Below, piece after piece: positions 22,403-45,677 of a stretch of DNA of 64,000 nucleotides. This DNA comes from Desulfobacterales bacterium. GTDB taxonomy: Bacteria; Desulfobacterota; Desulfobacteria; Desulfobacterales; JAAELO01. The stretch lies in assembly GCA_024226555.1 (NCBI GenBank), contig JAAELO010000628.1, positions 1-64,000 of the forward strand. The letters are read 5' to 3'. A program made the position numbers and the translations under genes. Every line of letters starts with the position of its first letter. Within the stretch, counting starts at the first letter, position 1. Below the pieces are notes generated by a model. That model was not told the origin of the DNA. It saw nothing but the letters and a program-made list of their open reading frames with translations, and made no database searches.

Positions 22403-23194
22403 TTATTGGCTAACTTCCCAGGAAAATATTCCCGGATTTAGCAGCTCTTCGATTGCTTTTGCCGTTTTAACAGTTTCAGTATTAAAGATATTTAACAATA
22501 CCATAGATAATCCAGAAGCAGCTAACATTGATAAATAACTGTTTTCAATTATATTTTTCTTAAGAGATGCTGGAGCCCCTGCGGAAAGATTAGAAAGACC
22601 TACAACCGTTTTTACTTCAAATCCTAAAACATCAGGTAGAAGCCTTATGACTCCAAGTAGTTCAAAATCCTGATTTTTTCCATCATCCCATATTAATGGA
22701 ACCAGCACAGGATCAATAATGAGTCTTTCCTCAGATATATCTTCTTCAATAATTTTCGAATGGATTTCAGATGCAATCGTCAATCTTTGGGTAGCCGTTT
22801 TTGGAACCTGACCCTCTTTTGTCAGGAGATACCCCATAATATCAGTATCAAACGTTTTTGCAAGTGGAAGTATTTTTTCTATCTTTTTTGGTTCAAGCGA
22901 AAAACCGTTAATTATAGCTCTGTTTTTAGCACACTTAAGCCCCGCTTCAATTGCCACAGGGTTAGCTGTATCTATTACTATAGGAAGTTCAGTTACTTCC
23001 TGAACGGCATCAACAAAAAACTTCATCTTGTCTTCAGCATTCTTTCCGAGCGGGCCAGTATTTATATCTATAGCATCAGCGCCAGACTCTTCGCATCTAC
23101 CAACCAGATTCCTGATCGTTTTAGCATCTCTTTGAGCGAGTGCTTTTTGAACTGATTCTTTAGTTATTTGAAGATTGTCTGCGATTAGTAACAT
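22403..23194 (-). CDS. AcsE/MtrH-like methyltetrahydrofolate methyltransferase
   Basis: 263 residues, a pterin-binding TIM barrel. Methyltetrahydrofolate:corrinoid methyltransferases of this size move the methyl group between folate and a corrinoid protein in the Wood-Ljungdahl pathway or methylamine-type systems. Diagnostic parts: GADAIDINTGPLG, LPIVIDTANPVAIEAGL, NRAIINGFSLEP, IDPVLVPLIW and VVGLSNLSAGAP. The strand-end asparagine/aspartate ligands for the pterin are present. No corrinoid protein or CO-dehydrogenase gene is in the window. The Shine-Dalgarno AGAGG appears to come from a MITE terminal repeat. A MerR gene lies just upstream on the same strand. Confidence 0.82.
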   Translation of the reverse strand: MLLIADNLQITKESVQKALAQRDAKTIRNLVGRCEESGADAIDINTGPLGKNAEDKMKFFVDAVQEVTELPIVIDTANPVAIEAGLKCAKNRAIINGFSLEPKKIEKILPLAKTFDTDIMGYLLTKEGQVPKTATQRLTIASEIHSKIIEEDISEERLIIDPVLVPLIWDDGKNQDFELLGVIRLLPDVLGFEVKTVVGLSNLSAGAPASLKKNIIENSYLSMLAASGLSMVLLNIFNTETVKTAKAIEELLNPGIFSWEVSQ

Positions 23195-23196
23195 AA

Positions 23197-23216
23197 TGGA
23201 ACCTCTAATAATTTTA
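23197..23216 (-). repeat. Lone MITE terminal repeat supplying a ribosome-binding site
   Basis: On the minus strand, AATTATTAGAGGTTCCATT ends directly before the ATG of the AcsE-like gene. AGAGG is 7 bp from the start codon and is the only Shine-Dalgarno candidate. Confidence 0.6.
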
Positions 23217-23223
23217 ATAAACT

Positions 23224-23613
23224 TTATTCAAGGTTTTTAAGTCTTTCATCAAGCTTTTCTTTTAAAGACTCAAGGTCCTGTTTAAATAATATAATCTCTT
23301 CCTGATGCTTTTCTATCTCTTTAAATTTCAACTCTATATATTTAAGGCTGTTTTCTATCTGCTTAACTTCTGTAAATTCGGAGTTTTCCGCTCCAATAAT
23401 CTCTGCAATATCATCAAGGGATGCTCCAAATCTTTTCCCACGGAGTATTAGTTTTAATCTCGCCCTGTTTTTCAGAGTGTAGATCCTTTGATTACCTTTT
23501 GTACGTTTTGGTTTTATAAGGCCTTTATCTTCATAAAATCTTATACTGGAAGGGCTAATATCAAGCTGAGCTGCAAGTTCCGATATTGTGAAAATTTCTT
23601 TTTCTGTACCCAC
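23224..23613 (-). CDS. MerR-family transcriptional regulator
   Basis: 129 residues. The N-terminal winged helix-turn-helix is typical: FTISELAAQLDISPSSIRFYEDKGLIKPKRT, then QRIYTLKNRARLKLILRGKRFGASLDDI. A C-terminal coiled coil (about 80-129, rich in E, L and K) should dimerise. No cysteine-based metal site is seen in the C-terminal part, so a metal sensor is unlikely. It lies 29 bp upstream of the AcsE-like gene on the same strand, and may regulate it. Confidence 0.88.
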   Translation of the reverse strand: MGTEKEIFTISELAAQLDISPSSIRFYEDKGLIKPKRTKGNQRIYTLKNRARLKLILRGKRFGASLDDIAEIIGAENSEFTEVKQIENSLKYIELKFKEIEKHQEEIILFKQDLESLKEKLDERLKNLE

Positions 23614-23751: not shown

Positions 23752-23887
23752 TATAGGGAACCTCTAATAATTAGAATTTTGATTGAAATACAAGGCTGAG
23801 AAAAAAATAACGAGCCGATTTTACTACAGTTTTTTTATGAATAACGCAGTATTTCGGTCAAAAGGCAGTTATTAGAGATTCCCTATA
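23752..23887 (+). mobile_element. MITE copy, short form, TATA duplication
   Basis: Body 23756-23883, a good representative: GGGAACCTCTAATAATTAG at one end and CAGTTATTAGAGATTCCC at the other, TATA on both flanks. Sub-terminal TTTTGATTGAAATAC and its right-arm counterpart (reverse complement TTTTGACCGAAATAC) show that the whole element is an imperfect hairpin. Confidence 0.9.
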
Positions 23888-42282: not shown

Positions 42283-43299
42283 ATGTTTTTAGATAATTTA
42301 AATAAAATAATCGCTGGAAATGATCTTACTGAGATGGAGATGTCAAACTCTATGATGGAGATATTCTCAGGGGAATTAAATGATGTTCAGATCGGCGCTT
42401 TTATGGCAGCCTTAGCAACAAAAGGCGAAACATTTGAAGAGCTTGCTGGTGCTGCAAAAGTTATGAGAAAAAAAGCTGTAAGAATACAGGTTAATCAGAA
42501 TAACGTTGTGGATACGTGCGGTACAGGTGGCGATGGTCTAAACACATTTAATATCTCAACCACAAATGCTTTTGTTGTTGCAGGATGTGGTGCAACAGTT
42601 GCAAAACATGGCAATCGGTCTGTTTCAAGTAAATGCGGTAGTGCTGATGTTTTAGAGAAATTAGGCGTTAATCTGGAAACACCACCGGAACTTGTTGAAG
42701 AGGTAATTGCAGAAGTAGGAATCGGTTTTTTATTTGCACCCAAGTTTCATGGTGCGATGAGATTCGCAGGGCCAGCAAGACAAAAACTTGGCATTAGAAG
42801 TATTTTTAATATGATCGGACCTTTGTCAAATCCTGCAGCAGCAGACTGTCAGCTTGTTGGTGTATACGCGCCAGATCTCACCGAGATGTTCGCAAAAGCG
42901 CTCAATCTTCTTGGAGTAAAAAGAGCTTTTGTTGTCCATGGACATGATGGACTTGATGAGATCTCAATTTGCGATACAACCAGAGTTTCAGAATTAAATA
43001 GTGGAAGTTATAAAACATATGATATAAATCCTGAAGATTATTTTGGTGAAATGGCAGATCCAAATGATATTAAGGGTGGTTCAGTTGAATTAAATGCTGA
43101 GATTGCTGAAAAAATATTAAATGGTGAAAAAGGTCCAAAGCGTAATATTACTCTAATTAATGCAGCTGCAGCCCTTGTATCATGTGGTAAAGCTGATAAT
43201 TTTAAAGATGGTATAAAACTTGCCGAAGAATCAATAGACTCAGGTGCTGCCATTGCCAAACTTAAACAGCTCGTAGAGTTTACACAGGAAAATAGTTAG
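42283..43299 (+). CDS. trpD: Anthranilate phosphoribosyltransferase
   Basis: 338 residues. It transfers phosphoribosyl from PRPP to anthranilate. Signatures: VDTCGTGGDGLNTFNIST (PRPP loop), AKHGNRSVSSKCGSADVLE, LGIRSIFNMIGPLSNPA and VHGHDGLDEIS. Length is normal. A good ribosome-binding site (TAGGAGA) precedes the ATG. The stop codon TAG lies within a MITE terminal repeat whose AGAGG apparently serves as the Shine-Dalgarno of trpC. Confidence 0.96.
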   Translation: MFLDNLNKIIAGNDLTEMEMSNSMMEIFSGELNDVQIGAFMAALATKGETFEELAGAAKVMRKKAVRIQVNQNNVVDTCGTGGDGLNTFNISTTNAFVVAGCGATVAKHGNRSVSSKCGSADVLEKLGVNLETPPELVEEVIAEVGIGFLFAPKFHGAMRFAGPARQKLGIRSIFNMIGPLSNPAAADCQLVGVYAPDLTEMFAKALNLLGVKRAFVVHGHDGLDEISICDTTRVSELNSGSYKTYDINPEDYFGEMADPNDIKGGSVELNAEIAEKILNGEKGPKRNITLINAAAALVSCGKADNFKDGIKLAEESIDSGAAIAKLKQLVEFTQENS

Positions 43300-43310
43300 A
43301 GGTTCCCTAG
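43294..43310 (+). repeat. Lone MITE terminal repeat between trpD and trpC
   Basis: AGTTAGAGGTTCCCTAG. It contains the trpD stop codon TAG (43297-43299) and AGAGG 9 bp before the trpC ATG. It is thus both the end of one gene and the apparent translation signal of the next. Confidence 0.65.
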
Positions 43311-43311
43311 A

Positions 43312-44109
43312 ATGAAAAAAGATTTTTTAAATATTATTATAGAAGAGAAGAAAAAAGAGGTAATGCTTGCGCACTGTGTTATCTCTGAATCCAAACTTAA
43401 AAAAGAGGTTAATAACTATAAAGGTAGAGAAATAAGACCTTTTTTTAAAGCCCTTGAAAAGAAAGAAAAGGGAAAGGTTAATATCATAGCAGAAGTAAAA
43501 AGAGCATCTCCATCAAAAGGTGATATAAATATAGATTTAGACCCATCAATACTTGCACTGGAGTTTGAAAATGGTGGGGCCGCAGCCATTTCAGTTTTAA
43601 CAGACACTAAGTTTTTTAAGGGTAGTTTCGAAGATTTTACAGATGTAAGAAACGTATCATCAATACCAATGCTTAGAAAAGAATTTATAATCTCCACATA
43701 TCAGATTTATGAATCATACATGCTGGGCGCAGATGCCGTTTTACTCATCGCAAAAGTACTTCCCAAGGAAAAATTGAAGGAGCTATATCAACTCTCAAAA
43801 TCCCTTGGAATGGATGTACTTATGGAAGTAAATAATATGGAAGATCTGGAAAAAGCAATGTATACAGATGCAAAACTCATTGGAATAAACAACAGAAATC
43901 TTAACAATTTTAATACAGATACTAACACTTCAATTAGACTGGGACAACTTCTAAATAAAGATCAGGTTGCTATTGCTGCAAGTGGCATAGCAAATAAACA
44001 GGATATAGAAAAAAGCCTGAAGGCAGGAATCCATAACTTCCTGATCGGTGAAAGTATCGCAAGATCCAAAGATAAAGTTAATTTCTTAAAGAATCTGGTA
44101 AATCATTAG
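43312..44109 (+). CDS. trpC: Indole-3-glycerol phosphate synthase
   Basis: 265 residues, a TIM barrel converting carboxyphenylamino-deoxyribulose phosphate to indole-3-glycerol phosphate. Visible: IIAEVKRASPSKGDI (catalytic lysine region), AISVLTDTKFFKGS, LRKEFIISTYQIYESYMLGADAVLLIAK, IGINNRNLNNFNTD and AASGIANKQDIEKSL. It is not fused to TrpF. The operon ends here: trpF, trpB and trpA are not in the window and must be elsewhere or absent. The ATG follows a MITE-derived AGAGG. Confidence 0.95.
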   Translation: MKKDFLNIIIEEKKKEVMLAHCVISESKLKKEVNNYKGREIRPFFKALEKKEKGKVNIIAEVKRASPSKGDINIDLDPSILALEFENGGAAAISVLTDTKFFKGSFEDFTDVRNVSSIPMLRKEFIISTYQIYESYMLGADAVLLIAKVLPKEKLKELYQLSKSLGMDVLMEVNNMEDLEKAMYTDAKLIGINNRNLNNFNTDTNTSIRLGQLLNKDQVAIAASGIANKQDIEKSLKAGIHNFLIGESIARSKDKVNFLKNLVNH

Positions 44110-45559: not shown

Positions 45560-45677
45560 ATTTTATTTGTAACTATTTTAAAAACAAAAAAGAACTGTAA
45601 TAAAATCATGCTCGTTACATTTTTCTCAAGCCTTTGTAAATTAAACCAAAATTCATTTTTTTAGAGGTTCCCCTATG
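45560..45677 (-). repeat. Degenerate MITE copy with one terminus
   Basis: Inner-element sequence (GAACTGTAATAAAATC then GCTCGTTACATTTTTCTC) leads to a terminus TTTTTTAGAGGTTCCCC at 45658-45674, followed by TATG. No left terminus is recognisable, so it is an old or truncated insertion. Confidence 0.55.

Follow-up and report, generated by a model that had tools for sequence, protein, structure and literature searches.

A putative MITE-end remnant as the predicted Shine-Dalgarno sequence of trpC in a Desulfobacterales bacterium

The 14 bp at the trpD-trpC junction in the 64,000-nt stretch of Desulfobacterales DNA analyzed here (the window) are probably a remnant of a MITE end, and the AGAGGT within them would now serve as the Shine-Dalgarno (SD) sequence of trpC, replacing a distant AGGA in trpD; we put the probability of this reading at roughly three in four. 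A preliminary description of this DNA had proposed that an element end acts as an SD, and this proposal is supported by position, spacing, the lack of another site, and genome-wide statistics. Sequence comparisons likewise support the co-option of element ends as SDs across the genome, in most cases through a whole element lying directly next to the ATG. A dozen or so genes, trpC included, appear to start translation from an element end rather than from a native signal.

The trpD-trpC junction and its likely history

The junction comprises the following features, all on the plus strand:

42283..43299, +, trpD (anthranilate phosphoribosyltransferase; TIGR01245, E 1.9e-125; PF00591/PF02885)
43284..43289, +, ACAGGA in the last trpD codons, the probable ancestral trpC SD
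43296..43309, +, lone MITE-end core TTAGAGGTTCCCTA (12-bp terminal-repeat core plus TA), from identity to the end consensus
43297-43299, +, trpD stop codon TAG
43298..43303, +, AGAGGT, the predicted trpC SD (8-9 nt spacer), from host SD statistics
43312..44109, +, trpC (indole-3-glycerol phosphate synthase; NF001377, E 5.5e-83; M1 invariant in a ten-family alignment)

The motif AGTTAGAGGTTCCCTAG spans 43294-43310, so that the end first placed at 43294-43312 keeps its sequence and features but stops 2 nt earlier. The match to element ends is limited to the 14-mer TTAGAGGTTCCCTA (43296-43309), which contains both the trpD stop and the candidate trpC SD. It is preceded by TAG where the consensus has TTA (2 of 15 positions mismatched) and has no partner end within 600 bp; the lack of these inner terminal-repeat bases in the match weakens the case for an insertion origin at trpC. 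AGAGG (43298-43302) is separated from the trpC ATG at 43312 by 9 nt (TTCCCTAGA), and GAGGT/AGAGG is the only SD before this ATG at normal spacing, both as originally noted. GAGGT, with its 8-nt spacer, is complementary to the canonical anti-SD (the host anti-SD is unread, the assembled 16S gene being truncated). The start at 43312 is secure: M1 is aligned and invariant across ten families, and the reading frame offers no alternative start further upstream.

In same-order relatives, all of which belong to other families, trpD ends mostly at the same place (FTQENG*, compared with FTQENS* in the window), and hence the position of the stop is inherited. The earlier claim that the element end carries the trpD stop is thus correct in that TAG lies inside the TTAG of element-like sequence, but a new stop made by the element was rejected, as the stop sits at its ancestral position. 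The trpD-trpC gap in these relatives is mostly -4 to +17 nt, with a few far longer, and their SDs vary; those with overlapping or near-zero gaps have AGGA a short way ahead of trpC, within the final trpD codons. The window's junction sequence was found in no same-order relative with a readable trpD end, which is a weak test given that every genome in this sample is from outside the window's family. Together with the conserved trpC start, this outcome means that neither of the two findings named in the preliminary description as refuting its proposal was observed. There was no same-family genome among the 40 genomes searched, and a protein scan of genome contigs was also empty.

The likeliest course is insertion of an element into the trpD-trpC gap, followed by a deletion that spared only the outer end of that element. 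Had the deletion joined the TTAG at the trpD stop to that of the element end, it would have produced the exact junction sequence, kept the trpD stop in place, and supplied GAGGT 8 nt before the trpC ATG. As suggested by sequence statistics, the AGAGGT in the remnant would bind the ribosome and start trpC 9 nt downstream. Termination of trpD at TAG and initiation of trpC at the ATG 12 nt later are probably coupled, considering that the stop, unmoved from its ancestral position, has bases in common with the remnant.

The same 12-nt gap would also permit re-initiation, and ACAGGA persists at 43284-43289. The lone end could therefore be element-derived but a neutral passenger, with trpC translation depending on ACAGGA or on coupling to, or re-initiation after, trpD. 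We consider this rather improbable, as ACAGGA is now 22 nt from the trpC ATG, a distance at which the host has no SD enrichment.

The repeat family and its possible parent

Allowing at most one mismatch, TTAGAGGTTCCCTA has 962 matches in the 7.69-Mb genome, compared with 5 for the reversed control, while the window holds four element-end matches at ≤3 mismatches against 0.12 expected. Element ends number ~1,630 genome-wide and correspond to the inverted terminal repeat, GGGAAYCTCTAATAA, of a MITE-like element (~130 bp). Complete elements 60-300 bp in length numbered 165 in 1.19 Mb, most of them measuring 120-139 or ~160 bp. Identical 4-bp flanks (mostly TTAA/TATA/TTTA) occur in 84 of the 165, and identical 5-bp flanks in 2. 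The element is thus a MITE by its short length, lack of coding sequence, terminal inverted repeats, high copy number, and fixed-length target duplication (4-bp TWWA). Lone ends, defined by no partner within 450 bp, make up 48 of 284 exact-core ends in the 1.19 Mb, a sequence in which the reversed core has zero occurrences. Five of the 48, the trpC-junction end among them, are core-only matches. Other partnerless ends lie away from called gene starts, at 45661 (+) and 57885 (-) in the window and, outside it, at 70402 (+) of contig C627.

The preliminary description had paired the trpC junction with a second lone end, which had AGAGG 7 nt before an AcsE-like ATG. This holds on the minus strand, where 23197-23216 reads AAAATTATTAGAGGTTCCATTATG and the ATG is at 23194. 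The surrounding features are:

22403..23194, -, AcsE-like methyltetrahydrofolate:corrinoid methyltransferase gene (NF005719, E 1.2e-50, under the curated cut-off)
23197..23216, -, second lone element end TTATTAGAGGTTCC, AGAGG 7 nt before the methyltransferase ATG
23224..23613, -, gene of a MerR-family regulator, co-oriented and lying upstream, its end 29 nt from the AcsE-like ATG
23756..23881, no strand assigned, complete MITE copy (limits approximate), with ends GGGAACCTCTAATAA ... TTATTAGAGATTCCC

The family is practically absent from the 39 same-order genomes searched. Its terminal repeat flanks 75-160-bp elements in several other phyla, and is common to Syntrophaceae, Planctomycetes, Nitrospirae, and Ruminococcaceae. 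None of 52 terminal-repeat loci from other phyla had an ATG gene start adjoining an end. Among the loci covered, those from other phyla giving three TTG candidates only, the ATG-start pattern is seen in the window's genome alone.

In the window's own genome, repeat pairs 0.7-3 kb apart enclose ordinary-looking genes in which no transposase was recognized by eye, and the DDE transposase loci have no matching ends. The best candidate for the parent kind of the MITE, judging by its ends, is a 1.23-kb IS5-family insertion sequence (IS) of Ruminococcaceae bacterium P7 (L302:1019-2249), which carries an NF033581 transposase and has a TAAA target duplication. Its ends (GGTCACCTCTAAAAA/TTTTTAGAGGTTGCC) differ from the MITE ends at 2-3 of 15 positions, and the ends and TAAA duplication resemble the ends and TWWA duplication of the MITE, although its transposase has no detected relative in the window's genome.

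Gene starts on element ends

The pattern formed by the two lone ends extends to a wider set of 13 gene starts, mostly beside complete elements. Genome-wide, 13 gene starts follow TTAGAGGTTCC, compared with ~0.009 expected from composition, so that coincidence, which had been allowed for because the motif is short, is unlikely. AGAGG lies 6-10 nt before the ATG in all 13 of these starts at G-type (AGAGG) ends. They include genes for a dihydrouridine synthase, a PhzF-like protein, an MFS transporter, a sigma-54 activator, and an AraC-type regulator, and the majority have a complete element immediately adjoining the ATG. Only trpC and the AcsE-like gene lie in tight operon gaps. The starts come from a simple gene caller, and a few of the 13 (e.g., loci L173 and L214) have plausible alternative starts. 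Examples with a complete element abutting the ATG are:

L208:1529-1546, strand not given, dihydrouridine synthase gene
L215:2383-2400, strand not given, AraC-type gene
L253:1559-1573, strand not given, PhzF-like gene
L265 around 8594, -, sigma-54 activator-like gene

At these four loci, the terminal repeat is the sole SD-like sequence at normal spacing, because the element directly adjoins the ATG.

The same counts bear on whether ordinary point mutation made the trpC junction, in which case AGAGGT would be a normal SD that resembles an element end by chance. The match is only 14 bp long and begins exactly at the trpD stop, and the varied SDs and short intergenic gaps of the relatives indicate that such features are gained repeatedly. 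However, C makes up only 7.7% of the 12 nt preceding starts, and the probability of TTCCC following an AGAGG SD is ~3e-5 in upstream composition; even with the TT ahead of the SD left free, ~0.01 such starts would be expected genome-wide. Among 47 AGAGG-type starts in the 1.19 Mb, the TTCC continuation occurs in the two window cases only (0.019 expected). Based on composition, the reversed-motif control, and the conditional SD statistics, a chance origin was judged unlikely, and we regard point mutation as an unlikely source of the junction.

Host SD usage was assessed from 889 genes in the 1.19 Mb, with starts assigned by a simple coding-score caller written for the analysis. An SD of at least 4 nt was present in 67% of genes at 4-12 nt spacing, compared with 9% at 16-24 nt. 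AGAGG was enriched at SD spacing (50/889 starts at 4-12 nt vs 12 at 13-21 nt), while AGAGA was not (12 vs 16 of the 889 starts). The host therefore uses AGAGG, and not AGAGA, as an SD.

Across the genome, an ATG lies 1-9 nt after 108 G-type ends and 92 A-type (AGAGA) ends. Among the ends fetched, this ATG opened a coding gene at 13 of 102 G-type and 3 of 93 A-type ends (Fisher P = 0.018). Close gene starts were 13G:2A, whereas ends lying 12-40 nt upstream were 13G:31A (P = 0.0002). The G/A contrast is partly confounded with which end faces the gene, since most left ends are AGAGG and most right ends AGAGA, and it looks weak within left ends alone (8G:4A at 12-40 nt). Right (A-type) ends prevail 12-40 nt upstream of genes, and left (G-type) ends directly at the ATG. 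Apart from the close starts, gene-facing ends avoid the SD zone: three fell at 0-5 nt and two at 6-11 nt, compared with 9, 14, and 9 across the three 6-nt bins that follow. They peak 12-30 nt upstream, usually leaving the native SD between end and ATG. Although confounded with end type, the genome-wide AGAGG-type bias at SD spacing argues for function and against a neutral passenger at trpC.

Taken more broadly, a MITE-end SD at trpC may be one case of an element whose terminal repeat carries a ribosome-binding site along as it spreads, such that insertion right before a start codon replaces the native SD rather than destroying it, with a dozen genes, tryptophan and one-carbon genes in operons among them, now dependent on its ends. 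From the sequence patterns, we consider the odds of this general reading to be about even. If true, repeated donation of a ribosome-binding site, also inside biosynthetic operons, would account for the survival of elements that land between an SD and its start codon.

Comparison with other mobile-element ends

Mobile-element ends are a known source of promoters, terminators, and stop codons; for example, Correia elements and IS ends carry outward promoters. As in those cases, the MITE end would give a neighboring gene an expression signal, but their signal is transcriptional, whereas that of the MITE end would be translational. The titles, abstracts, and passages covered by our literature search (subscription papers were outside its scope) described no SD supplied by a MITE end.

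MITEAba12 of Acinetobacter (113 bp) has start and stop codons near its ends that are able to fuse with neighboring genes; in contrast to the role proposed here, its translational effects are described as still to be examined, and no SD role is reported (PMC6382973). BOX elements of Streptococcus pneumoniae are similar by description, being small non-coding repeats at gene borders that can contain a stop codon, as at trpD. In pneumococcus, BOX-encoded stops terminate 36 annotated genes that show no clear truncation relative to orthologues (PMC3049150). BOX-derived open reading frames are described as lacking good SD sequences (PMC3049150), whereas the MITE end described here supplies the predicted SD of conserved genes.
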